From Planotetraspora phitsanulokensis (GTDB lineage Bacteria; Actinomycetota; Actinomycetes; Streptosporangiales; Streptosporangiaceae), in the NCBI RefSeq assembly GCF_016863295.1, contig NZ_BOOP01000013.1:124001-188000 (forward strand): 64,000 nt of DNA, written 5' to 3'. The notes beneath the pieces were generated by a model, which worked only from the letters and a program-made list of their open reading frames with translations, was not told the origin of the DNA and did no database searches. Every line of letters starts with the position of its first letter. The first letter of the stretch is position 1. This document shows positions 4,003 to 32,696 of the stretch, one piece after another. The position numbers and the translations under genes are program-made.

Positions 4003-4249
4003 CCGTAGCTGGCTGAGGTGGAAGCCTGATCGCTCGCCTGCCATCGACCCAGGCAGAGCCCAGCAGACCGACTCCTCCAGGTCAAGCTCAGCCGTGCAGG
4101 CAGGACAACCAGCGCGCGAGGAAGGTCACCCGGAACATGGAACACGCGAGGCCAGGCTTGACCCTCCGTCGCCGGCCCGTCGCCGCTCCGCGATGGGTCG
4201 ACAGCAGACGAGAGATCAGGACAAGGTGAGAGCGTAGGTGAGCGCCCCC

Positions 4250-4870
4250 TTAAGGCGTGAGACCACGGATCCTTCGCAGGGCTCGGATGTGGATGGCGGC
4301 CGGCGATTCGCGGAGTCCTACCGTCATCCCTCCGAACTGGAGGACCGCCTGAGTGAGGCGTTCCGGATCGAGGATCCAGCCGTCTGCTACCTTCTCCCGG
4401 TCACTCTGGTCTTCTCTCTTAAGGGAGATGATCAGTGCGTGTGGCCGATCATCTCCGAAGACGCGAGGCTTCAGCGATATTTCCACAGCAGAGATGTCCG
4501 CCCAGGGGATAACCTCTGCAGGGATTTTCGACTGTCCACCGAGATATATGCCGGCTGGCCCCACTGCGTAGGCGATTCGCCTGCGGACGACACGCCATAA
4601 CTGGCCGAAGACGTACGCGAAGAACCCGATGCCCGCTGCGAAGGCGACACGCCCTGACGTCACGGCCCCATAGATGACCGGGCCGAAAGATGTCGTCAGC
4701 GGCCAGACAAGATCACGAGGGGAGTAGCACACAAGGAACGAATCTGAGCCGAGTTCGCGCTCGACCTTTTGCCGGTCCGATTCTCGCGACACGCGAGCAC
4801 GATCGCACGCTGCAGGGACGCCTGCAAGAGTGCCCGCGGAGTTCTGATCTGGGACGTCCGACGCCTGCAT
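4250..4870 (-). CDS. Hypothetical membrane protein with PH-like fold
   Basis: A protein of about 206 residues. A hydrophobic stretch near residues 65-90 (VAFAAGIGFFAYVFGQLW) suggests a membrane segment. The part after it (AVGPAGIYLGG, then IPWADISAVEI) has the pattern of small bacterial PH-like domains, in which strands alternate with a W-x-D/E-I motif. The frame is open back to 5104, but it crosses the duplicated attachment sequence at 5009-5036 and an integrase-tail-like stretch (AMCPQSAP). The gene therefore more likely starts at the ATG at 4870 (GGAG three bases upstream) or at 4903. It has no recognisable partner and is best treated as island cargo. Confidence 0.5.
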   Translation of the reverse strand: MQASDVPDQNSAGTLAGVPAACDRARVSRESDRQKVERELGSDSFLVCYSPRDLVWPLTTSFGPVIYGAVTSGRVAFAAGIGFFAYVFGQLWRVVRRRIAYAVGPAGIYLGGQSKIPAEVIPWADISAVEISLKPRVFGDDRPHALIISLKREDQSDREKVADGWILDPERLTQAVLQFGGMTVGLRESPAAIHIRALRRIRGLTP

Positions 4871-4940
4871 CGGCTCCGGTGTCGGGGCACTTTGGGGGCA
4901 CATGGCATCGGAAAGTACTGGCAAGCAATGGCAACGAATG

Positions 4941-5036
4941 GAAGCGTTTTCGCAGGTCGCTTGTGGTTCAGAGCGAATCCGTGCAGGTAGGAGGCGTGCG
5001 GAATCTGTACCCGGCCTACAGGCCGACTCGTCCGCT
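4941..5036. repeat. Attachment-site flank and second exact copy of the rnpB 3' end
   Basis: Positions 5009-5036 repeat the last 28 bases of rnpB exactly. The ~90 bp from 4941 to 5030 also align with 13547-13636, sharing blocks such as TCGCAGGTCG, TTCAGAGCGAA and CGGAAT in the same order and spacing. Just upstream, 4886-4910 resembles the integrase tail next to rnpB (GGGGCACNTTGGGGGCACAT at both places). I read this as the end of a second, mostly lost element that used the same target. Confidence 0.7.
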
Positions 5037-5168
5037 ATTAAGCCTCTGACCTGTGCCTCTGCGGCTACTTGAGGCTGCTGTTCCGCCAGCGCTGTGGTGA
5101 CCATGGCTTCGACCGCACCTCTACCGAGATCTTCATCATGCGGAGCCCGAGCCAGGGCCCGTCGGCGC

Positions 5169-6095
5169 CTACGCGCCCTCGGCGCCGCCGTCGTCCGGTG
5201 CGGCGGCGGGCGCCCCGTGCGCTTTGAGGCGTGCGGCGAGCGCCGCCGCGGCTTCGGAGAGCCCGGACCAGCGCCGGCTGCACAACAGCAGGTTGCGCTT
5301 CGCCCAGGAATTCGTCAGGTCCACGACCCGCAGGTCGTAGGTACGCTGCCAACGGACGACCGCGCGCGCGGGAACCACGGCGATGCCGACGCCGACCGCT
5401 ACCGCGTTGCAGATCGCCTCCGTGGTCGGCAGATGCGCCCGGTAGCGAGGCCGGAGCCCGAGCGGCTGGGTCTGCCCGCTCAGATGCTCCTGCAACGGGT
5501 TCCCCTCGGTGAAGCCGACGAACGGGTGGCCGAGGCACTCGCTGAACGCGACATGAGCACGCGCGGCCAGAGGGTGGCCTGGCCGTGTGATGACGACCAG
5601 CGGGTCGGGACGCAGCACCGCCCGTTCCAGCCGACCCGAGTCCACAGTATCGGCGATGATCCCCAGTTCCGCCCGGCCGTCGGTGACGGCGGCGACTATC
5701 TCATGGCTCGGCCGCTCCTCCAGTTCCAGGTCGATGTCGGGGTTGTCGGCCATGAAGTCGACTATCACCGACGACACGAGCGTTTCGGTTGCCGAAGTGT
5801 TTGCCGAGATCACCAATGTGGACCGCAGGCCGTCAGAATATCGGGACAATTCAGAACGCATCCGAGCAATCTGCCTAACGACCTCACGGGCATGGGCCAC
5901 CAGCAGCCACCCTGCCGGTGACGGCACAACGCCACGGCGATGCCGGGTCAGAAGCGGCGCCCCCAGAGCCTTCTCCATCGCCTTGATCCTCGCACTGGCC
6001 GAAGCCAGCGACAGGTGTGACCGGTCCGCACCCCGGGTGATGCTGCCCTGGTCGACTACCTGCAGGAATAGCTGAAGATCGGTCAGGTCATACGT
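5169..6095 (-). CDS. LysR-family transcriptional regulator
   Basis: A 308-residue LysR-type regulator. The N-terminal winged helix-turn-helix (DLQLFLQVVDQGSITRGAD, then LSLASASARIKAMEKALGAP) is followed by a periplasmic-binding-protein-like effector domain from about residue 88 (LVISANTSATETLVSSVIVDF). Start at the ATG at 6095 gives the standard LysR N-terminus; a GTG at 6116 would add seven residues. It is divergent from the PAS-domain gene with about 180 bp between them, which contains a perfect inverted repeat at 6135-6155. LysR proteins commonly control the divergent neighbour, so the PAS gene is the likely target. The effector is unknown. Confidence 0.88.
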   Translation of the reverse strand, partial: TYDLTDLQLFLQVVDQGSITRGADRSHLSLASASARIKAMEKALGAPLLTRHRRGVVPSPAGWLLVAHAREVVRQIARMRSELSRYSDGLRSTLVISANTSATETLVSSVIVDFMADNPDIDLELEERPSHEIVAAVTDGRAELGIIADTVDSGRLERAVLRPDPLVVITRPGHPLAARAHVAFSECLGHPFVGFTEGNPLQEHLSGQTQPLGLRPRYRAHLPTTEAICNAVAVGVGIAVVPARAVVRWQRTYDLRVVDLTNSWAKRNLLLCSRRWSGLSEAAAALAARLKAHGAPAAAPDDGGAEGA

Positions 6096-17391: not shown

Positions 17392-17755
17392 CGGCTGAAC
17401 GACGGCGTGGGCCGGTGGGCTCCTCTGGGTGATCCGGCCCGGCCTGGGCGTACGGGTCTGGGCCACACCCGATCTGACGAAGCCGATGACGGCGATCGCT
17501 CGCGGCATCACGTCTGTCCCGCCGGGGAAGGGGGAAGCGGATCGTCCTGGGGGAGGGGCGGCCGACGGGAGAGGCGACTGACCTGCCGACCCGGCAACGC
17601 GGGCGAAACCGGGAACGCGGACGGCGTGGGAATGCGGACGAAACGGGAATGCGGAAGGGGGCGGTCGCAGTTGGCGCTTGTCGGGACGAGTGCGCTTTCA
17701 GGCGGACGAGTCCGTTGGTGATTTCGTGCTCGACCCGCAAGGAGAACTTCCCCAC
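17392..17755. other. 364-bp stretch upstream of the DHA2 exporter gene
   Basis: No gene is recognised. Short purine-rich near-repeats around GGGAATGCGGA occur at 17610-17660. The promoter for the exporter probably lies here or just before 17756. Confidence 0.4.
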
Positions 17756-19276
17756 GTGGCAACAACCATCTCGAAGGGCGTCGGGCTCCGTTCGGAGCGC
17801 GGACCGGTGCTGGCGGCCGTCATGCTCTCCACCGGCCTGGTGGCGCTGGACAGCACGATCATCGCCACCGCGGTGCCGTCCATCGTCAGCGACCTCGGCG
17901 GCTTTTCCCAGTTCCCCTGGCTCTTCTCGATTTATCTGCTGACGCAGGCGGTGACGGTCCCGCTGTACGGCAAGTTCGCCGACATCGCGGGTCGCAAGCC
18001 GGTGATCCTGCTCGGCATCACCGCCTTCCTCATCGGGTCGGTGTTGTGCGGGTTCGCCTGGAGCATGCCGGCGCTCATCGCCTTCCGCGCCGTGCAGGGC
18101 ATCGGCGCGGGAGCGGTCCAGCCGATCAGCATGACGATGATCGGCGACCTGTACACGGTGGAGGAGCGGGCCCGCGTCCAGGGCTACGTCGCCAGCGTCT
18201 GGGGCGTCGCCTCGGTGCTGGGGCCCACCCTCGGCGGCGTGTTCTCCGAGTACGTGTCGTGGCGGTGGATCTTCTTCATCAACCTGCCCCTCGGCGCCAT
18301 CGCGATGTGGATGATCGCCCGGCGGTTCAAGGAGAACGTGACACCCGGCTCGCATCGCATCGACTACACGGGGGCGGCCCTGCTCATCTCGGGCTCCTCC
18401 CTCCTCATCCTCGGCCTGCTCGAAGGCGGGGTCGCGTGGGGCTGGACCTCGGTGCCCAGCGTGGTCATCTTCGTGGCGGGCATCGTCCTGCTGGTCGTGT
18501 TCGTGCTGGTCGAACGGCGGGCGGCCGAGCCGGTCCTGCCGCTGTGGGTCTTCCGCAACCGCACGCTCACGGGTGGCAACCTCGTCGCGGTGGGCGTCGG
18601 CGCGCTCCTGATCGGGCTGAGCTCCTACATCCCGACGTACGTGCAGGGGGTGCTCGGCACCGGGGCGCTGGTGGCGGGCTTCGCGCTGGCCGCGCTGACC
18701 ATCGGGTGGCCCATCGCCGCCGCCCTGTCGGGACGCGTCTACATGCGCATCGGCTTCAGGGACACGGCGCTGATCGGCAGCCTGCTCATCGTGGCCGGCG
18801 CCGTCCTGTGCGGACTGCTCGCCCAGGACGCCATGGTGTGGCAGGTCGCCGCGGCGTGCTTCGTCGTCGGCGCGGGCCTCGGCCTGTCGTCCAGCCCGAC
18901 CGTCGTCGCCGTCCAGTCGGTCGTCGGCTGGGAACGGCGCGGCGTGGTCACCGCGACCAACATGTTCTGCCGCTCCATCGGCAGCGCGGTGGGGGCGGCC
19001 GTCCTGGGAGCCATCTCCAACGCGACGCTGGCCGACCGGTTCGCCCATCCTCCTGCCGGTGTCGCCGGTCACCTGCCGAAGAGCGTCGACGCGACCAGCC
19101 TGGTGCTCGGAGGGCAGGGGTCGGCGGTCCGCGATTCGGCGGTGGGGGTCTTCGTCCGCCGAGCGCTCTACGACGCTGCACACCACACGTTTCTCGCGCT
19201 CGTCGTGGTGGCCGTGCTCAGCGTGGGCGCGCTCCTGCTGATGCCCCGGCGCACCGAGCAGCTCAGCTTCGACTGA
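17756..19276 (+). CDS. DHA2-family (14-TM) MFS drug exporter
   Basis: A 506-residue major-facilitator protein of the QacA/EmrB type. LVALDSTIIATAVPSI in the first helix is the DHA2 motif D1, GKFADIAGRKPVILLG between TM2 and TM3 is MFS motif A, and GVASVLGPTLGGVFSEYVSW in TM5 is the antiporter motif C. Such pumps export hydrophobic or cationic drugs in exchange for protons. The GTG at 17756 is chosen because AAGGAG lies 11 bases upstream and hydrophobic sequence begins soon after; the frame is open to 17678. It is convergent with the F0 subunit a gene, leaving only 19 bp. Confidence 0.9.
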   Translation: MATTISKGVGLRSERGPVLAAVMLSTGLVALDSTIIATAVPSIVSDLGGFSQFPWLFSIYLLTQAVTVPLYGKFADIAGRKPVILLGITAFLIGSVLCGFAWSMPALIAFRAVQGIGAGAVQPISMTMIGDLYTVEERARVQGYVASVWGVASVLGPTLGGVFSEYVSWRWIFFINLPLGAIAMWMIARRFKENVTPGSHRIDYTGAALLISGSSLLILGLLEGGVAWGWTSVPSVVIFVAGIVLLVVFVLVERRAAEPVLPLWVFRNRTLTGGNLVAVGVGALLIGLSSYIPTYVQGVLGTGALVAGFALAALTIGWPIAAALSGRVYMRIGFRDTALIGSLLIVAGAVLCGLLAQDAMVWQVAAACFVVGAGLGLSSSPTVVAVQSVVGWERRGVVTATNMFCRSIGSAVGAAVLGAISNATLADRFAHPPAGVAGHLPKSVDATSLVLGGQGSAVRDSAVGVFVRRALYDAAHHTFLALVVVAVLSVGALLLMPRRTEQLSFD

Positions 19277-19295: not shown

Positions 19296-20081
19296 CTAGT
19301 GGTCCGGGTGCAGGGAGCCGCCGATGAACATGGCGGCGAGCATGGTGAACAGGAACGCCTGGAGGAACTGGATGAAGATCTCCAGGCCCGTCATCGCGAC
19401 GGTCGTCACCACGCTGAGGACGCCGATCGACGCACCCGGCAGGGTCGGATGCGCGATCAGGAACCAGAAGCCGGCCGCGCTGAAGAACGCCAGCAGCAGG
19501 TGTCCCGCGAACATGTTGGCGAACAGCCGTACGGCATGCGTGAACGGCGCGGTGACGAAGTTGTAGAGCAGTTCGAGCGGGGCGAACAGCGCGATGGCCA
19601 GGGGCTTCGGCAGGCCGGGCGGGAACATCATGTTCTTGAAGTAGCCGCCGAGCCCCTGGTGCCTGATGCCCAGATAGATCTTCAGCACGTATACCACCAG
19701 AGCGAAGATCACCGGGAACGCGATGTGCGAGTTCACCGGGAACTGCAGGACGGGGACGACCCCCATGAAGTTCCACACCAGGATCAGCACGAACAGACTC
19801 AGCAACAGCGGCATCCAGCGTTCGGCGTCCTTGCCCAGGAACGGCCGCGCCACCTGGTCGCGCACGAACTCGTAGACATACTCGCCGGCGTTCTGCATGC
19901 CGCGCGGCACCAGCTTCGGTGAGGCAAACGCGGCCCACGCGAGCGAGCACACCAGGACCACGCCGAACGCCGCCATGACGACGGGCTTGTTCAGCCAGTG
20001 TGGTGCACCGTCCCAGAGCGGCGGGAAATCGAAGATGCCGACTCCCGGAGCCTCGAACTCGTCCACGGCGACAAGTGACAC
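19296..20081 (-). CDS. Solitary F-type ATP synthase subunit a (AtpB) homologue
   Basis: About 261 residues, all recognisable as F0 subunit a, the proton half-channel of ATP synthase. The essential Arg is retained in HAVRLFANMFAGHLLL near residue 190, and the usual GLGGYFKNMMFP and EIFIQFLQAFLFTMLA stretches are present. No other ATP synthase gene is adjacent: the neighbours are an exporter and a TetR regulator. It is therefore probably a second, orphan copy. The frame is open to 20201; I prefer the GTG at 20081, because the N-terminus then matches the family (DEFEAPGVGIFDFPPL). Confidence 0.85.
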   Translation of the reverse strand: MSLVAVDEFEAPGVGIFDFPPLWDGAPHWLNKPVVMAAFGVVLVCSLAWAAFASPKLVPRGMQNAGEYVYEFVRDQVARPFLGKDAERWMPLLLSLFVLILVWNFMGVVPVLQFPVNSHIAFPVIFALVVYVLKIYLGIRHQGLGGYFKNMMFPPGLPKPLAIALFAPLELLYNFVTAPFTHAVRLFANMFAGHLLLAFFSAAGFWFLIAHPTLPGASIGVLSVVTTVAMTGLEIFIQFLQAFLFTMLAAMFIGGSLHPDH

Positions 20082-20249
20082 GCCCACCGACCGGTCCCCT
20101 CGTGCGACGGCAATACCGGGTACGACGTACTCGGTTATGTTCCTGAGGCTACTTACTGGATACGTAGTACGCAATATCTGGCCGGGAAGGACCGTTGACA
20201 TCGCATCAGGTCGTGGAGGTGTGGTAGTTCAGACCAGGCACAGCGAGAG

Positions 20250-20984
20250 ATGGTGAGGATGACAAGTCGGGAGAACCTCTGGATGCGGCCGGAGCAACCC
20301 GCCCGGGGGCCGCGGCCGACGTTCAGCCGCGCGCAGCTGACGGAGGCGGCCATCCGGGTCGCCGACGCCGAGGGGCTGGCCGCGATCTCCATGCGGCGCC
20401 TCGCGACCGAGATCGGGGCGGGGACGATGTCCCTCTACCGATACGTCTCGGGCAAGGACGACGTCATCGAGCTGATGATCGACGCCGTCGTCGCCGACTA
20501 CCTCCCGCCGGACCTCGTCCTGTCGGGAGACTGGCGGGCCGATCTGCGCGCGCTGGCCGGCCGGGTCCGCGAGGTCATCCTCCGTCACCCGTGGATCGCC
20601 CCGTTGTCGGGCACCCGGCAGCAGGCGAGCCCGAACCGGGTGCGGATGCTCGACACGGCCCTGCGCATGGTCGACGGTCTCGGCTTGAGCTTCAACGAGA
20701 TGCTTACGGTCATCGGCACGGTCTTCGCGTACGTCAACGGATTCGTGGAGAGCGAGTTGGCCGAGGCCGAGGCGCTGCGCCGTACGGGCCTCGATCTGAT
20801 GGAGTGGATGACTCTGCAGGTTCCCTACCTGCAGTCCGTCGTCGCGAGCGGGCGATACCCCATGGTCGTGAGGATGCTGACGGAGGGCGGGCAGGACTAC
20901 GTCGACGTGGGGGACCGGTTCGCCTACGGGCTCGACCGCCTCCTGGACGGCATCGCGGCACGCCTCCCGCAGGCCGGTGACTGA
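20250..20984 (+). CDS. TetR-family regulator with TetR_C-type ligand domain
   Basis: A 244-residue regulator. RPTFSRAQLTEAAIRVADAE and LAAISMRRLATEIGAGTMSL with YRYVSGKDDVIELM form the HTH, and HPWIAPLSGTRQQASPNRVR begins the tetracycline-repressor-like C-terminal domain. It is divergent from the orphan subunit a gene, with about 170 bp between the preferred starts. The region contains TACTGGATACGTAGTA (about 20154-20169), a possible operator. The start may be 20250 or 20259; GTGAGG precedes the latter. Ligand unknown. Confidence 0.87.
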   Translation: MVRMTSRENLWMRPEQPARGPRPTFSRAQLTEAAIRVADAEGLAAISMRRLATEIGAGTMSLYRYVSGKDDVIELMIDAVVADYLPPDLVLSGDWRADLRALAGRVREVILRHPWIAPLSGTRQQASPNRVRMLDTALRMVDGLGLSFNEMLTVIGTVFAYVNGFVESELAEAEALRRTGLDLMEWMTLQVPYLQSVVASGRYPMVVRMLTEGGQDYVDVGDRFAYGLDRLLDGIAARLPQAGD

Positions 20985-22262: not shown

Positions 22263-24530
22263 TCAGCCGCGGCGCAGTTCTGGAACGGCCGAAAAGTGCT
22301 CCCTCTCGAGCACGTGGACGCGGGCCGCGGGGATGTCGAAGTAGAGCCCCGTGAGTTCCAGCTTTCCGGCACGCACGAGCTCGTTCACGAGAGGGTGGGT
22401 CTCCAGGTTGTCCAGCTGCTGGATCACGTTCACCCGGCACAACCGGTCGAGCGGACCGGCGTCGTCGTCTTGCTCGGGGACGGCGGCGAAGCGGGCCAGA
22501 CTCTGCTGCCCGTGCCGCAGCCAGTTGCGCAGCGCGGGCAAGTCGGGCGCCTCGCTGAGGAGGGCGGACATCGCGCCGCACCCCGAGTGGCCGCACACCG
22601 TGATCGTCCGCACCTCGAGGACATTCAGGGCGTACTCGATGGCCGCCGAGACCGAGTCGTCGGGCGGAGCGCTCGAGACGCGTGGCACGAGGTTGCCGAT
22701 GTTGCGCACCGTGAACAGGTCTCCCGGGCCGCTCGCGGTGATGATGTTGGGCACGATCCGCGAGTCGGCGCACGTGATGAACAGATGGGAGGGAGTCTGC
22801 TTGCGGGCCATTCTGTGCAGGAGCGGCCGGACGAGCGGCGCGGTCCTGCGGTGGAACTCCCGCGTCCCCTGCAGCAGGTCCGGCACGGCCTGAGCCTGGT
22901 CCGTCACGTGGTCGCCGTTGGGACCGTTCTCGCACATCTCGTCGTAGGCGCACATGCTCTCGGCCTGGCGCACGGGATCGACCACGCGGCGGCGGTAGGC
23001 CCACGGCAGCCAGAAGCGATCGTGCTTCGGCGGGGTCCTGGCCGGCAACATTCGGGCGCCGCTGACGGCCGCGGCGTACCACTCGCCGTGCAACTCGTCG
23101 ATGTCGATCGTGCCGCCGCCGCGCTCGTGCTCCAGCCGCCAGGCGTGGAGCGTCTCGAAGCCGGCGTGGTCCATGAAGTCGAGGTTCAGGTCGAGTTCCA
23201 CCGCCGTGCCCTGCGGGATCGTCGCCAGGGACTCCGCCAGGCGGGGCACGCCGAGGAACGTGAGGGACCCGGTGACGACGACGCGCCAGCGGTCGCCCGC
23301 CTGCCGTACCACCACGGAGGTCCAGGCGAGGCGGCGCAGGGCGAGCAGCGCGGCCAGCCCGAGGCCGAGCGCGACGCCCTCCGCGAGGCCGATGACCACG
23401 ACGCCGCCCATGGTCACGAAGTAGATGGGCATCTCACGGTGCCCGCGCAGGTTGCGCGCGTGTCCGAGGTTGACCATCTGCACGCCGATGAACAGCAGCA
23501 GCGCCGCCAGGGCCTCGAGGGGGATGAGTGCGATCATCCACGCGAATCCGGCCGTGAACAGCAGCACCCACAGGCCGTGCAGGACGGTCGACCAGCGGCT
23601 GCGCGCCCCCGCCCTGGCGTTGGCCGTGGTGCGCACGACCACGCCGGACACCGGCAGGCCGCCGAGGGCGCCCGACACCACGTTGGCGACGCCCTGCGCG
23701 GCGAGCTCCCTGTCGAGGTCGGCACGCGGGCCGTCGTGCTGCCGGTTGGACGCCACGCAGGTGAGGAGCGACTCGACGCCTGCGAGGAGGGCGACGAGCA
23801 GGACCGCGCCGGCGATGGCGTGCCAGTCGCCCTGCGGCAGCAGCGGGGACTCCAGGGAGGAGAAGCCGCCGGACAGGTCGACCCGGGTCAGGTCCCAGCC
23901 GAGCACGGCCGCCGTCAGAGCGGCGATGACCAGCGCCGCGAGCGGAGCGGGCACCTTGCCGAGCCGGGGCACCCGCGACCAGACGAGCAGGATCCCGATC
24001 GTCAGGAGGCCGACCAGGACGGCGTGGCTGTGGTTGTTCACGATCTGCGACGGCAGTTCGAGAATGTTCTCGAACGCGGAGGTTTGAGGTTTGCCGCCCA
24101 GCACGATGTGCAGCTGGGAGAGCGCGATCACCACGCCCACCCCGGCGAGCATGCCGTGGACGACGGCGGGGGAGACGCCCAGCGCCGCCTTCGCCACCCG
24201 GAACGCTCCAAGGAGGAGCTGGAGCAGGCCGGCGAGGAGCGTGATCATGCAGGTGGCTCGCCAGCCGTAGGTGTGGACGAGCTGGGCGACGACGAGCGAC
24301 AGGCCGGCCGCCGGTCCGCTGACCTGGACGACCGATCCGCCCAGCGCCCCGGCGACCACACCGCCCACGACCGCGGCCACGAGACCGGCCGCGATCGGGG
24401 CTCCGGAGGCGACGGCGATGCCCATCGACAGGGGCACCGCCACGAGGAACACCACCAGAGAAGCCGGCACATCGTGCTGGAGCACCGACCCCCAATAACG
24501 CTTGGAACTCGCCTGACTACTCTGTGTCAT
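22263..24530 (-). CDS. SulP-family anion transporter fused to beta-carbonic anhydrase
   Basis: A 755-residue fusion. Residues about 15-400 are a multi-spanning SulP transporter (VASGAPIAAGLVAAVVGGVV; later GALGGLPVSGVVVRTTANAR). A STAS-like domain follows near 405-475 (VELDLNLDFMDHAGFETLHA). Residues about 545-750 form a beta-carbonic anhydrase with zinc ligands in CADSRIVPN and CGHSGCGAMS, both intact. The natural reading is bicarbonate uptake coupled to CO2/bicarbonate interconversion at the membrane. Such fusions are known in actinobacteria. It is followed on the same strand, 50 bp upstream in the window sense, by a low-complexity membrane protein gene. Confidence 0.93.
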   Translation of the reverse strand: MTQSSQASSKRYWGSVLQHDVPASLVVFLVAVPLSMGIAVASGAPIAAGLVAAVVGGVVAGALGGSVVQVSGPAAGLSLVVAQLVHTYGWRATCMITLLAGLLQLLLGAFRVAKAALGVSPAVVHGMLAGVGVVIALSQLHIVLGGKPQTSAFENILELPSQIVNNHSHAVLVGLLTIGILLVWSRVPRLGKVPAPLAALVIAALTAAVLGWDLTRVDLSGGFSSLESPLLPQGDWHAIAGAVLLVALLAGVESLLTCVASNRQHDGPRADLDRELAAQGVANVVSGALGGLPVSGVVVRTTANARAGARSRWSTVLHGLWVLLFTAGFAWMIALIPLEALAALLLFIGVQMVNLGHARNLRGHREMPIYFVTMGGVVVIGLAEGVALGLGLAALLALRRLAWTSVVVRQAGDRWRVVVTGSLTFLGVPRLAESLATIPQGTAVELDLNLDFMDHAGFETLHAWRLEHERGGGTIDIDELHGEWYAAAVSGARMLPARTPPKHDRFWLPWAYRRRVVDPVRQAESMCAYDEMCENGPNGDHVTDQAQAVPDLLQGTREFHRRTAPLVRPLLHRMARKQTPSHLFITCADSRIVPNIITASGPGDLFTVRNIGNLVPRVSSAPPDDSVSAAIEYALNVLEVRTITVCGHSGCGAMSALLSEAPDLPALRNWLRHGQQSLARFAAVPEQDDDAGPLDRLCRVNVIQQLDNLETHPLVNELVRAGKLELTGLYFDIPAARVHVLEREHFSAVPELRRG

Positions 24531-27400: not shown

Positions 27401-30400
27401 ATGCAGGGGGTGACGCTGGACACGGGCGTGAGCTTCGCCGTCCTCGGGCCTCTCGAGGTACGCGAGGACGGCCGCCTGATCGAGATCGGCGGGCAGCGGT
27501 TGCGCGCCCTGCTCACCCTCCTGCTCCTCGACACCGGCCGCACCGTCCCCACCGACGTCCTGGTCGCCGGCGTGTGGGACGACCGCCCGCCGAACGGCGT
27601 GGGCAACGCGCTGCAGGCGCTGGTGTCCCGGCTCCGGGGGACGATCGACCGGACGCTCGTGGTGGCGGACCCGTCCGGTTACCGCCTTCTGGTCCCGCCC
27701 GACCAGGTCGACCTCCACCGCTTCACCCGGCTGGCCCGTGAGGGAGGCAGGGCGCTGGAGACGGGAGACCCCGGCCTGGCCGTACGGGTGCTCACCGAGG
27801 GTCTCCGCCTGTGGCGCGGCGCACCGCTCACGGACCTGCCCGTCGGCGGTGTCGAGGTGGCCCGGCTCGAGGAGATCAGGATCGCCGCGACCGAGGACAG
27901 GATCGACGCCGAGCTCAGGCTGGGGCAGTTCCCCGAGGTCGTCTCCGAGCTGTCCCGGCTCATCGCCGCCCACCCGCTGCGCGAGCGGCTGCGCGGGCTG
28001 CTGATGCGCGCCCTCTACGGTTCGGGCAGGCAGGTGGAGGCGCTCGCCGCCTATGAGGACGCCCGTGTCGCGTTCGCGGAACGGTTCGGCGCCGACCCGT
28101 CGCCCGCGCTGGCGGAGCTGCACCTGTCCATCCTGCGAGGAGACGGCTCCGCCCTGCGGGGAGACGGTTCCGCCCTGCGGGGAGACGGTTCCGCCCTGGG
28201 GGGAGACGGCTCCGCGCTGCGCGGCCCTGACGAGGGGGAGCCGCAGGTTCCGCCGCGCGTGCACGAGCCGGTCCGGCCACTCGATGCGCCGCCCGCGCGG
28301 AAGGGCAACCTGCGCGCCCGGCTGACCAGCTTCGTCGGGAGAGAGGGCGACGTCGAGCAGGCGGGGGAGCTGCTGGCCCGCAACCGCCTCGTCACACTTC
28401 TCGGGCCGGGCGGCGCGGGGAAGACCAGGCTCGCCGTCGAGTCGGCCGAGGCGTTCGCGCCCTCCGCCCCGGACGGCGTGTGGCTCGTGGAGCTGGCGTC
28501 CGTGGTCGACCCGGCCCAGGTCCCGCGCGCGGTCCTGGCCGCGCTCGGTCTCCGGGACATGGGGCTCGTGCCGGTGCGCTCGTCGGCGGGACCGGCCGCC
28601 GACTCCGACGCGACCGACCGTCTGGTGACGGCGCTGGCGGGACGCTCAGTGCTGATCGTGCTGGACAACTGCGAGCATCTCGTGAACGCCGCGGCCATCC
28701 TGGCGGACCGGCTGCTCGCCGACTGCCCCGGGATCCGGATCCTGGTGACGAGCCGCGAACCGCTCGGCATCACCGGCGAGGTGCTCTGGCCGGTCCAGCC
28801 GCTCGGCCTCGACCACGCCGTACGGCTGTTCGCCGACCGCGCGGCGGCGGCGCGGCCCGGCTACCGCGCGCAGGACGACCGGGACGCGGTCGAGCGCATC
28901 TGCCGCGGGCTCGACGGCATGCCCCTGGCGATCGAACTGGCGGCCGCCCGCCTGCGGACCCTGTCCGCGGACGGGATAGCCGACCGGCTCAGCGACCGTT
29001 TCCACCTGCTGACCAGCGGGAGCCGTACGGCCATGCCCCGCCACCAGACTCTGCGCGCGGTCGTCGAGTGGAGCTGGGACCTGCTCGACGACGGGGAGCG
29101 CACGCTCGCGGCACGTCTGTCCGTCTTCGCGGGAGGCGCCACGCTGGAGAGCGCGGAGGAGGTCTGCCGCGGAGACCTCGACGTGCTCGGCCGTCTCGTC
29201 GACAAGTCTCTGGTGGTGTTCGACGGCGGCCGCTACAGCATGCTGGAGACGGTCCGCGCCTACGCGGGCGACCGGCTGGCGGAGACGGGCGACGAGCGCG
29301 AGATCCGGATGGCGCACGCCCGGTTCTTCGCCGAGATGGCCGAGACCGCCGACCCGCATCTGCGCCGGGCCGAGCAGGTCGAGTGGCTCCCCCGGCTGTG
29401 GGCCGAGCACGACAACCTGACGTCGGCCCTGTTGTGGGCCACCGATCAGGGCGAGGCCGACGTGGCGCTGGCACTGGTCGGCAACCTCGGCTGGTACTGG
29501 TGGCTGGTGGGGCAGCGTCGGGAGGGCGCGCAGCGGGCCGAGGAGGTCCTGCGCATGGCGGAGGGCGCGGATCCCGAGGCCGACCCGGTGAAGGTCGCGC
29601 TCGCCCACGCGGTGCTCGGCCTGACGTGGGCCGCGGCGGACCTCCAGTGGGACAGGGCGAAGGACAGCCTGAAGACGGCGATCCGGCTGCTGCGGGACCA
29701 CCCGGCCCCGGATCCGCCGCATCCGATGGTGGCCATGGCCGCGCCCATCCTGGCGCTCCTGCTCAGCTCGGACCGGGAGGCCAACGCCCGTCTGGAGGAC
29801 CTGTTCGGCCATCCCGATCCTTGGGTGGTCGCCGCCGCCTACATGTTCCGCGGCAACATGGCGTTCAACTCGGGCCGCGTCGCCGAGGGGGAGGCCGACC
29901 TGCGGGCCTCCCTCGAGCTGTTCAGAGAGGTCGGCGACCGGTGGGGGATGGGCAACGCGCTCGCGTCGCTCGCGGAGGCGGGCACGATGCGTGGCAGCGG
30001 CGAGGCCATTGAGATCCTGCGGGAGGCCATCGCGCTCGTCGACGAGGTCGGGGCCGTGGAGGACACGCCGTACATGCGGACCCGCCTGGCGATCGCCCTC
30101 AACATCGCCGGTGACCGCGCGGCCGCGGCCGCGGTCCTGCAGGAGGCCATGCGCATCTGCGTCGACAACGCCGACCTCGTGGGGAAGGCCGGCGTGGAAC
30201 ATGTCCGCGGCGACTTCGCCCGGGAGGCGGGCGACTTCGACGCCGCCCGCGAGTGCTACCACGAGGCGTTGCGGCTGCTGGGCGGTCCGGAGATGTCGTC
30301 GGCCCGGCAGTTCCAGGCGACGCTGAGCGCGTCGCTCGGCATGCTGGCCGCGCAGGAGGGCGACCTCAGACGGGCTCGCCGCCTCCACGGCGAGGCGCTG

Positions 30401-30670
30401 GCCCTCGCGGTCGAATCGCAGGACGGCCCGGTGGTCGCCCATGTGATCGTGGCGTACGCCTGTCTCGCCGCCGTCGAAGGCGATCACGAGAGCGCCGCGG
30501 TGCTGCTCGGCGGGGCGACCGCCGTCCGCGGGATCGTGGACGTCGTCGGCTTCGACCACGTCCGCGCCACGGAGGCGGCCAAGGCCGCGCTCGGCGGGGA
30601 GGAGTTCTCCCGGTGCTACGAGCGCGGCCGGGCGATGACCCGGGAACAGGTCGTCGTCTTCGCGGGCTGA
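27401..30670 (+). CDS. SARP-type AfsR/DnrI regulator with NB-ARC ATPase and TPR-like C-terminus
   Basis: A 1089-residue regulator. Residues about 8-95 are an OmpR-like winged helix (FAVLGPLEVREDGRLIEIGG) and 100-245 a bacterial transcriptional activation domain. After a repeated RGDGSAL linker (246-275) comes an NTPase with Walker A LLGPGGAGKTRLA near 333 and Walker B VLIVLDNCEH near 418, then helical repeats to the end. SARP proteins activate secondary-metabolite genes. The nearest candidates here are the convergent ABC-2 exporter genes, but no biosynthetic cluster is visible. Start ATG at 27401; no strong ribosome-binding site. Confidence 0.9.
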   Translation: MQGVTLDTGVSFAVLGPLEVREDGRLIEIGGQRLRALLTLLLLDTGRTVPTDVLVAGVWDDRPPNGVGNALQALVSRLRGTIDRTLVVADPSGYRLLVPPDQVDLHRFTRLAREGGRALETGDPGLAVRVLTEGLRLWRGAPLTDLPVGGVEVARLEEIRIAATEDRIDAELRLGQFPEVVSELSRLIAAHPLRERLRGLLMRALYGSGRQVEALAAYEDARVAFAERFGADPSPALAELHLSILRGDGSALRGDGSALRGDGSALGGDGSALRGPDEGEPQVPPRVHEPVRPLDAPPARKGNLRARLTSFVGREGDVEQAGELLARNRLVTLLGPGGAGKTRLAVESAEAFAPSAPDGVWLVELASVVDPAQVPRAVLAALGLRDMGLVPVRSSAGPAADSDATDRLVTALAGRSVLIVLDNCEHLVNAAAILADRLLADCPGIRILVTSREPLGITGEVLWPVQPLGLDHAVRLFADRAAAARPGYRAQDDRDAVERICRGLDGMPLAIELAAARLRTLSADGIADRLSDRFHLLTSGSRTAMPRHQTLRAVVEWSWDLLDDGERTLAARLSVFAGGATLESAEEVCRGDLDVLGRLVDKSLVVFDGGRYSMLETVRAYAGDRLAETGDEREIRMAHARFFAEMAETADPHLRRAEQVEWLPRLWAEHDNLTSALLWATDQGEADVALALVGNLGWYWWLVGQRREGAQRAEEVLRMAEGADPEADPVKVALAHAVLGLTWAAADLQWDRAKDSLKTAIRLLRDHPAPDPPHPMVAMAAPILALLLSSDREANARLEDLFGHPDPWVVAAAYMFRGNMAFNSGRVAEGEADLRASLELFREVGDRWGMGNALASLAEAGTMRGSGEAIEILREAIALVDEVGAVEDTPYMRTRLAIALNIAGDRAAAAAVLQEAMRICVDNADLVGKAGVEHVRGDFAREAGDFDAARECYHEALRLLGGPEMSSARQFQATLSASLGMLAAQEGDLRRARRLHGEALALAVESQDGPVVAHVIVAYACLAAVEGDHESAAVLLGGATAVRGIVDVVGFDHVRATEAAKAALGGEEFSRCYERGRAMTREQVVVFAG
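28139..28222 (+). repeat. Four tandem 21-bp coding units (GDGSALR)
   Basis: GGAGACGGYTCCGCCCTGCGG is here described as four nearly identical 21-bp units that keep the frame of the SARP regulator. They form the linker between its DNA-binding/activation half and its ATPase. Expansion or loss would change linker length by seven residues per unit. Confidence 0.85.
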
Positions 30671-30684
30671 CCCCGGCGCCGGCA

Positions 30685-31497
30685 TCAGACGCGGTCGCGG
30701 AAGGCCCGGATCGACAACGGTGCGAACACCACCGCGATGCCGACCGCCCACAGCAGCGAGATTCCGGCGTGCTCAGCGACGGGACCACCGCTGAGCAGGC
30801 CCCGAACCGCGTCGGACAGGTGGCTGACCGGGTTGACCTCGACCCACTTCTGCAGCCAGGACGGCATCGTGTCGGTCCGCACGAAGGCGTTGCTGGTGAA
30901 GGTGATCGGCATCATCAGCGAGAACATCAGGATCTGGACCTTCTCCTGGTCGGAGGCGCGGAGGCCGACCAGGACCGCCACCCAGGACATGGCCAGAGCG
31001 AAGGCCAGCAGCACCGCCAGCGCGCCGGCGACGCCGATCAGGCCCGTGTGCACCCGGAAGCCGAGGACGAGGCCCAGCCCCAGGAACAGGGCGAACGCCC
31101 ACACCTGCTTCAGCGTGTCGGCCACGATCCGTCCCGCGAGCGGCGCCGAGCGGGCGATCGGCAGGCTTCGCAACCGGTCGAAGACGCCCTTGGTGATGTC
31201 GGTGTTCAGCCCGACGGCCGTGGTCATGCTGGCGAACAACATGTTCTGCGCGACCAGGCCGGGCAGCGCGAACTGCAGGTAGTCGCCGGTGGACCCGGCG
31301 ATGGCGCCGCCGAAGACATAGGTGAAAAGCAGCAGGAACATGACGGGCTGGACGCTCAGGTCGAGCAGTTCCATCGGATTGTGCTTGATCTGCACCAGGC
31401 TTCGCCACGACAGCGTCATGGTGTGGCGGAACGTGGCCGAGGGGCTGAGCCTGGGGGCGGCGACGGCCCCTCCGGCGGTCTCGGCGATCGTGGTCAT
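30685..31497 (-). CDS. ABC-2 type exporter permease (DrrB-like)
   Basis: A 270-residue membrane protein with about six helices, of the ABC-2 family that includes daunorubicin exporter DrrB. FGGAIAGSTGDYLQFALPGL and FDRLRSLPIARSAPLAGRI, then FTSNAFVRTDTMPSWLQKWV and NPVSHLSDAVRGLL, are family hallmarks. It should pair with the ATPase encoded just upstream. The ATG at 31497 has GGAG six bases upstream and overlaps the stop of a 38-codon ORF in an ATGA. It is convergent with the SARP gene, 14 bp away. Confidence 0.9.
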   Translation of the reverse strand: MTTIAETAGGAVAAPRLSPSATFRHTMTLSWRSLVQIKHNPMELLDLSVQPVMFLLLFTYVFGGAIAGSTGDYLQFALPGLVAQNMLFASMTTAVGLNTDITKGVFDRLRSLPIARSAPLAGRIVADTLKQVWAFALFLGLGLVLGFRVHTGLIGVAGALAVLLAFALAMSWVAVLVGLRASDQEKVQILMFSLMMPITFTSNAFVRTDTMPSWLQKWVEVNPVSHLSDAVRGLLSGGPVAEHAGISLLWAVGIAVVFAPLSIRAFRDRV

Positions 31498-31610
31498 GAT
31501 GTCTCCTCGTCAAGGTTGTCGGGAGTGTTCGGTCGTGCCCCGGACGCCGCCGGGCCCAGGGGCGCAGGTGTGACCGTCGATGCGGTGGCTGGCAGGGCCG
31601 TCCGGCTCAT
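31494..31610 (-). CDS. 38-residue Pro/Ala/Thr-rich ORF wedged between exporter genes
   Basis: An ATG at 31610 overlaps the stop of the ATPase gene (ATGA), and the ORF's own TGA overlaps the ATG of the permease gene (ATGA). GGGACCCCCTCC on the other strand places a GGAGGGGGTCC-like ribosome-binding site nearby. The peptide is composed mainly of Ala, Pro and Thr and ends in DNLDEETS. It has no membrane helix and no known family. It could be a translated coupling peptide, a small accessory subunit, or the N-terminal extension of a permease disrupted by a frameshift. Confidence 0.5.
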   Translation of the reverse strand: MSRTALPATASTVTPAPLGPAASGARPNTPDNLDEETS

Positions 31611-32578
31611 GCCGGGACCCCCTCCGGTTGTGCCTTCTCCTGGGCCTCCTCCGCGGCGCGTCCGGTGAGGGCGAGGAAGACCTCGTCGAGACTCGACTTG
31701 CGCAGCGACAGCTCGGACGCGATCACGCCGAGGTCGTCGAGACGGCGGACGATGGCGGGAACCGCGGCGGCGTCGCGCACGCCGGCCCGCACCAGGCCGC
31801 CGGACACGGTGGGCGCGACGCCGAGGATGTCGCCCACCACGCGCCCCACCAGGTCGAGATGGGCGGCCTCCGCCGGGCGCACCTCGAGCACCTGGCCGCC
31901 GACCGTCGCCTTGAGCTCGTCGGACGTGCCGTTGGCGATGACCTTCCCGTGGTCGAACACGACGATGTCGTCGGCGAGCTGGTCGGCCTCCTCGAGGTAC
32001 TGCGTGGTCAGCAGGACGGTCACACCATCGCTCTGGAGGCCGCGCACGACGCCCCACAGCTCGGTGCGGCTGCGCGGGTCGAGCCCCGTCGTCGGCTCGT
32101 CGAGGAACAGCACCTGCGGGCGGCCGATCAGACTGGCCGCGAGGTCGAGGCGCCGGCGCATGCCGCCGGAGTAGGTCTTCGTCGCCCGGCCTCCCGCGTC
32201 GGTCAGGTCGAAGCGCTCGAGAAGCTCGGCGGCGCGCCGCCGGGCGTCGGCCCGCGACATGTCGAGCAGCCGGCCGATCATCACGAGGTTCTCCACGCCG
32301 GTCAGCGTCTCGTCGACCGCGGCGTACTGGCCCGTCAGGCCGATCAGCGAGCGCACCTGGTGCGCCTGCCTCACCACGTCGAACCCGCCCACCTGGGCCC
32401 GGCCGCCGTCCGGCCGCAGCAGGGTGGCGAGGATGCGGACTGCCGTGGTCTTGCCCGCCCCGTTGGGCCCCAGCACCCCCAGCAGCCGCCCCTGGGGCAC
32501 CTCGAGATCGACCCCGTCGAGGGCGCGGGTCTCGCCGTAGTGCTTGGCCAGGCCCTGCGCCTGGATCGCGTATCTCAT
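31607..32578 (-). CDS. ABC exporter ATP-binding protein (DrrA-like)
   Basis: A 323-residue ATPase of the DrrA/daunorubicin-resistance group. Walker A LGPNGAGKTTAVR near residue 38, signature YSGGMRRRLDLA near 138, Walker B LFLDEPTTGLDPRSR near 158 and H-loop in LLTTQYLEEAD. The C-terminal ~90 residues are the usual DrrA extension. GGGAGGA lies five bases before the ATG at 32578. With the permease it forms a complete ABC-2 exporter for a hydrophobic molecule, perhaps an antibiotic or lipid. Confidence 0.92.
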   Translation of the reverse strand: MRYAIQAQGLAKHYGETRALDGVDLEVPQGRLLGVLGPNGAGKTTAVRILATLLRPDGGRAQVGGFDVVRQAHQVRSLIGLTGQYAAVDETLTGVENLVMIGRLLDMSRADARRRAAELLERFDLTDAGGRATKTYSGGMRRRLDLAASLIGRPQVLFLDEPTTGLDPRSRTELWGVVRGLQSDGVTVLLTTQYLEEADQLADDIVVFDHGKVIANGTSDELKATVGGQVLEVRPAEAAHLDLVGRVVGDILGVAPTVSGGLVRAGVRDAAAVPAIVRRLDDLGVIASELSLRKSSLDEVFLALTGRAAEEAQEKAQPEGVPA

Positions 32579-32696
32579 CGATGTCCTCCCTTGTCGTGGA
32601 CACCACCTTGCGGCATGCCACTGACAGTTCACTGAGCGTCGCAATCAGCCGCTGACATATCGCTGACGGAGGGCCTCGGTCTTTTAGGGTGGGGCT

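Follow-up and report, generated by a model that had tools for sequence, protein, structure and literature searches.

A stretch of 64,000 nucleotides from Planotetraspora phitsanulokensis, referred to here as the window, carries a second, diverged copy of atpB, the gene for the a-subunit of F-type ATP synthase, in a genome whose normal atpB is intact. We give a probability of roughly 0.5 to the reading, drawn from sequence comparisons, that this second copy supplies an alternative, inducible a-subunit of F0 (AtpB'), which would serve as an inducible target replacement against natural F0 inhibitors. The features of the locus are as follows:

17678..19276, plus strand: DHA2-family MFS exporter (PF07690; TIGR00711 at 220 bits, just under the cut-off of 230)
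19296..20087, minus strand: orphan atpB, F-type ATP synthase subunit a (PF00119, E 3e-54)
20116..20134: operator-like site 2, CCGAGTACGTCGTACCCGG on the minus strand, with a GTAC-N3-GTAC-type core, in 18/18 type-1 loci
20146..20151, minus strand: putative, weak -10 element TAGCCT, read from the sequence, its position conserved in relatives
20159..20174: operator-like site 1, TTGCGTACTACGTATC on the minus strand, present in 18/18 type-1 loci
20250..20984, plus strand: TetR-family repressor (TetR_C_1; PF02909, E 2e-23)

An intact atpB outside the atp operon

The orphan atpB is a complete ATP-synt_A gene on the minus strand, with its stop at 19296. In profile searches, its product scores 184 bits against PF00119 (cut-off 33.9) and 131 bits against TIGR01131 (cut-off 102.6). 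The longest open reading frame reaches back to an ATG at 20201; because this codon precedes the conserved operator/promoter block (20116-20174), translation must begin below the block, and the start is probably the GTG at 20087, with a ribosome-binding GAGGGG just 5' of it, or the GTG at 20081, as first noted. The essential arginine (Arg225 in P0001 numbering) is invariant in a 56-row alignment, and the remaining half-channel residues are mostly invariant or nearly so, in orphans and operon copies alike. In the TetR-linked type of orphan, Tyr202 is replaced by Ala and one residue is inserted at 204. An AlphaFold model of the orphan protein is of moderate quality (mean pLDDT 72), and its best Foldseek matches in the PDB are all a-subunits at a probability of 1.00, including mycobacterial enzymes with bedaquiline and the yeast enzyme with oligomycin. 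Among the five Planotetraspora genomes, dN/dS is 0.13-0.34 for the orphan and 0.13-0.22 for the operon atpB; the orphan is under purifying selection. The initial annotation had described a stand-alone atpB with its essential Arg intact, divergent from a TetR gene and convergent with a drug exporter, and this description holds throughout: the gene is an intact PF00119 member outside the atp operon, Arg225 is kept, TetR diverges from 20250, and the exporter converges on the orphan and ends at 19276.

A complete atp operon exists elsewhere in the 9.17 Mb source genome. The window lies on contig C13 and the operon on contig C15, in the order GPT-atpI-atpI2-atpB-atpE-atpF-atpH-atpA-atpG-atpD, with an atpB of its own that is 71% identical to the orphan. 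The orphan is thus not the only atpB copy in the genome, and the full operon rules out the splitting or rearrangement of a normal operon as its source. A single c-subunit gene is present in the genome, in the C15 operon; consequently, a spare a-subunit has to use the normal c-ring. The ion site of this c-subunit, judged by its motif, is presumably of the proton type. In the a-subunit of alkaliphilic Bacillus, a Lys takes the place of the Gly that lies two turns beyond the essential Arg; the corresponding Gly233 is invariant in orphans and operon copies, which rules out an alkaline adaptation of the Bacillus type. An alternate F1F0 or N-ATPase is likewise ruled out by the single c gene and by a TIGR03306 score of 45 against a cut-off of 302. 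It had been proposed that a regulated second half-channel might modify the proton specificity of the enzyme or protect it against an F0-binding inhibitor. The extra, apparently regulated a-subunit and its dedicated TetR are supported, and protection would agree with the evidence given below; a change in ion specificity is unsupported, with one c gene, an ion site that reads as proton-type, and the alkaliphile-type position unchanged.

A dedicated repressor gene and its operator-like sites

The TetR, whose start possibly lies a few codons further in, near 20260, was used as a query against 343 genomes of the family. The best homologues (58-100% identity, 312-527 bits) adjoin an orphan atpB within about 200 bp in 26 of 26 cases, after which the match drops to 272 bits in a protein without an adjacent atpB. 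The view that this TetR is dedicated to the orphan is therefore well founded. A homologue with 52% identity also stands beside the orphan atpB of genome G065.

In 18 of 18 aligned loci, the intergenic region contains two operator-like sites, each with a GTAC-N3-GTAC-type core; their spacing is 39-42 bp in 16 of the 18. Site 1 overlaps a putative -35 element (TTGCGT at 20174-20169), which is separated by 17 bp from the -10-like hexamer TAGCCT, and site 2 lies just downstream of the presumed atpB transcription start. A strict consensus promoter scan scored no promoter in the atpB'/TetR intergenic region. Such a two-site arrangement would be expected if atpB' is repressed, and with a repressor gene conserved beside its apparent target and operator-like sites between them, the locus resembles a TetR-regulated divergent pair.

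The exporter, which probably starts further in at about 17765, ends 19 bp from the atpB stop. By synteny, it adjoins the orphan in Planotetraspora only and thus falls outside the conserved module, so that a role as a module part was ruled out. Among the genes scanned in the window, there was no biosynthetic cluster for an F0 inhibitor inside or beside which the orphan would lie, as is found for self-resistance genes. An anti-phage role was rejected, as PADLOC returned no match for any of the three proteins. Further along the window, at 22263-24530, is a SulP-type transporter fused to carbonic anhydrase; the gene order from this fusion to TetR-atpB' is also kept in Microbispora hainanensis (L031). 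An AfsR-like regulator (BTAD, NB-ARC, TPR) lies beside an ABC transporter pair at 27401-32644, with no biosynthetic genes nearby among the genes scanned.

Distribution and repeated origins

The atpB and TetR genes are kept together in 5/5 Planotetraspora genomes and in many relatives, and the TetR-atpB' module was found in Planotetraspora, Microtetraspora, Microbispora, some Nonomuraea, and others (the genus names of some relatives were assigned by identical sequence or tree position). At least two atpB matches are present in 77 of the 343 family genomes, about five of the 77 being fragments or split genes. By genus, a second atpB occurs in 5/5 Planotetraspora, 10/15 Microbispora, and 37 of about 54 Nonomuraea genomes, with scattered others. 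Outside the family it is rare, at about 10 of 354 genomes in a class-wide sample, several of these copies being fragmentary. Across Planotetraspora and Microbispora, the position beside the same neighbours has been retained, and several lineages have lost or broken their orphan. Decaying copies were seen in Microbispora (L194, 2284-3092, split across frames) and Actinomadura (L206, 5197-5982, with an in-frame stop).

Orphan atpB arose at least four times in actinomycetes, a minimum forced by well-supported tree branches. Origin C comprises the Streptosporangiaceae orphans, that is, the TetR type of the window, the Nonomuraea type, and the Streptosporangium-like type. Nonomuraea type 2 had a separate origin in one tree and formed one clade with type 1 (support 87) in another; because of this conflict, types 1 and 2 are counted as one origin. 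Origin B contains the Actinomadura/Thermomonospora orphans, and origin A the Actinoallomurus-like orphans, whose TetR is 52-59% identical to that of the window. Origin F is represented by one genome, G469, which belongs to another family; a second species has a fragment that is 97% identical. In G469 (L230, 2-11501), the orphan follows an alpha/beta-hydrolase-like gene, and FtsK/transfer-like and transposase-like genes were recognized by eye; the copy in the second species (L231, 5596-5958) is broken. The near-identical broken copy and the transfer-like surroundings together suggest mobility.

Regulators of several other kinds adjoin the remaining orphans. A TetR with a TetR_C_6 domain lies directly upstream of the Actinomadura orphans, a MerR gene adjoins the orphan in a second Actinomadura/Thermomonospora group, and a MarR or further TetR is near the Streptosporangium-like orphans. 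The orphan of Nonomuraea spiralis has a two-component pair upstream, and the common Nonomuraea type is without an adjacent regulator. These neighbours may control orphans of the types other than TetR_C_1, adjacency alone being no proof. The conserved convergent neighbour of atpB' at the Actinomadura-type loci is a putative cytochrome P450 gene, SVRYSPFDFDVQKDPYPVY (L200, L203, L204, and L205, at about 3.1-4.6, 5.7-7.0, 3.5-4.8, and 2.9-4.1 kb, respectively).

Convergent replacement of a channel serine

Each orphan clade was compared with the operon copies of the same group at 71 positions that are at least 90% conserved, with 97 operon copies in the comparison. At position 213, 96 of 97 operon copies have Ser, whereas none of the 50 orphans from origins C, B, and F does. 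In clade C (41 orphans), it is the sole position of the 71 that is changed throughout, and it is one of four changed positions in B and likewise one of four in F. The replacing residues are Tyr (24), Glu (11), His (3), and Gln (3) in clade C, Gln (8) in B, and His (1) in F; the two orphans of origin A have Ser. Under random placement, a conservative permutation gives a chance of 0.003 for any triple coincidence of this kind. In a version with eight subclades, not all of them independent, 7/8 were changed, a value never reached in 20,000 permutations. Positions 206 (Leu to Tyr/Phe) and 209 (Ile to Leu) are also altered in most C orphans and in some of the others, and the spacing of 206, 209, and 213 corresponds to one face of a helix (helix 5). 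An early list of convergent positions (138, 206, and 213, in three lineages) was narrowed once more lineages were included, since only 213 holds throughout the subclades of three origins, and 206 and 209 hold in part. The Actinoallomurus-like orphans (L209, 3370-4975; L210, about 4190-5449) keep Ser213, although the TetR beside them is the closest one in the out-group; in L210, both ends of the gene are irregular, a possible sign of degradation.

Ser213 aligns with the Ser of the E-x-x-S motif in Paracoccus, and this motif relates it to the serines aS148 of the human, aS199 of the E. coli, and S175 (atp6) of the yeast enzyme. John and Nagley are said to have found in 1986 that oligomycin-resistance changes in yeast subunit 6 (oli2/oli4) include I171F and S175C. 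These two changes would presumably align with positions 209 and 213. An oligomycin-resistant Streptomyces mutant carried a SNP in the F0 a-subunit as one of seven SNPs (PMC6328673). The human, E. coli, and yeast serines have been equated with each other, and the aS148-equivalent serine has been located close to the c-ring, in the cleft on the exit (matrix) side (PMC5095641). Human S148N and yeast S175N stop proton flow, with the yeast complex still assembling, and E. coli S199A has no apparent effect (PMC5095641). In mycobacteria, the alignment places a Glu at the equivalent position in working enzymes. Contacts at the lagging bedaquiline site of M. smegmatis are aL170, aP172, aI173, and aV176, with aF169 as a possible contact (PMC9516385). 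These residues align with positions 206, 208, 209, 212, and 205, respectively; position 213 is thus next to a bedaquiline contact (212) and is itself no listed contact.

A proposed inducible spare a-subunit and competing explanations

The following scheme would account for these observations. At rest, the divergent TetR would hold atpB' off by occupying both sites between the two genes. On meeting a small-molecule ligand, TetR would release the gene, and AtpB' would be made. It would then replace the operon-encoded a-subunit in newly assembled F1F0, on the single canonical c-ring. AtpB' would keep the essential Arg and the associated machinery, with the helix-5 face (206, 209, and 213) remodelled at the exit half-channel and c-ring groove, in a region to which bedaquiline and other F0 inhibitors bind. 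The cell would most likely benefit by continuing to make ATP when natural F0 inhibitors from competitors poison the normal a/c interface. AtpB' would thus likely protect against F0 inhibitors. The more specific proposal, that assorted one-component regulators sense F0-inhibiting natural products and switch on the spare a-subunit as a form of antibiotic immunity, is put forward tentatively, at somewhat less than an even chance. Target replacement accounts for the regulators being ligand sensors, for the patchiness of the distribution, for the copy in a mobile-looking region, and for where the changes lie. Equally, the replacement of Ser213 might damage the channel or alter its tuning, because Asn at the equivalent serine blocks proton flow in yeast and human enzymes. 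Other points that count against target replacement are that the window genes scanned include no F0-inhibitor cluster, that Ser213 is no listed bedaquiline contact, that both Actinoallomurus-type orphans retain Ser, that the common Nonomuraea type has no regulator beside it, and that several lineages have lost or broken their orphan.

The main rival, a physiological isoform, would account about equally well for the channel change; we regard it as a real if unlikely possibility. AtpB' would be switched on at low proton-motive force, extreme pH, or low oxygen, or during development, and would tune proton exit through the helix-5 face, the TetR ligand being a metabolite or stress signal and no antibiotic. 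The match of Ser213 to an exit half-channel residue suits this explanation, as do the preserved neighbours in Planotetraspora and Microbispora and the two-component system that precedes the N. spiralis orphan. In addition, Nonomuraea gerenzanensis grows from pH 4 to 12, and duplicated ATP synthase genes are mentioned in one phrase (PMC5431353). However, the position altered in alkaliphiles, Gly233, is invariant, and the regulators come from several different families, most of them one-component ligand sensors, which suggests a number of chemical signals and not one general stress.

AtpB' might instead enter F1F0 as a brake, blocking or slowing proton flow and thereby curbing ATP hydrolysis or leak in stress or dormancy. 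Such a function would agree with the yeast enzyme, in which Asn for the equivalent Ser stops proton translocation and the complex still assembles (PMC5095641). It is improbable, however, given the strong constraint on the other channel residues, including Arg225, the lack of apparent effect of S199A in E. coli, and the working mycobacterial enzymes, which carry Glu at 213 like the Nonomuraea type-2 orphans. A functionless relic or chance duplicate, or a copy kept by gene-dosage effects only, is very hard to credit: the broken copies in Microbispora (split) and Actinomadura (in-frame stop) fit it, but dN/dS is close to that of the operon copy, the regulator and operator-like sites are conserved, and the orphan arose four times or more, with three of these origins sharing a change.

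Relation to known systems and significance

A bacterial ATP synthase is usually regarded as a single, invariable enzyme encoded by one operon. The orphan belongs to the same family as AtpB/ATP6 and has the same fold, essential Arg, and half-channel residues; unlike these proteins, it is encoded outside the atp operon with its own repressor gene, and Ser213 is replaced. The yeast oli2/oli4 changes affect the same subunit but are point mutants of a single gene, whereas the orphan is a second gene with its own regulator gene. N-ATPases and other alternate F1F0 complexes also represent a second ATP synthase gene set in some bacteria, in that case as a whole operon, in contrast to the one subunit found here. 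Target-replacement paralogues in actinomycetes include inducible resistant gyrB and aminoacyl-tRNA synthetases. The rpoB(R) gene of Nonomuraea is likewise a second, diverged copy of a drug target beside the normal gene, for which coexistence with antibiotic producers was raised by the authors (PMC5431353). In comparison with rpoB(R)-type paralogues, AtpB', as a candidate target replacement, is part of a membrane channel and has to be assembled with a single partner set. Literature searches for self-resistance of ATP synthases and for duplicate atpB genes, with most subscription papers outside their reach, returned no description of the module. We know of no earlier regulated target replacement in a rotary ATPase. 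A diverged second target is already known from rpoB(R); what would be new is to find one in a rotary ATPase, controlled by a repressor of its own.

The convergent change of a channel serine offers a direct test of the role of this residue. If AtpB' confers inhibitor immunity, it would represent a resistance route to F0-directed antibiotics, and orphan atpB genes with their regulators would provide a genome-mining handle for environmental F0 inhibitors and for the ligands sensed. A regulated, exchangeable channel subunit would mean that these cells can retune or shield their rotary motor on demand.
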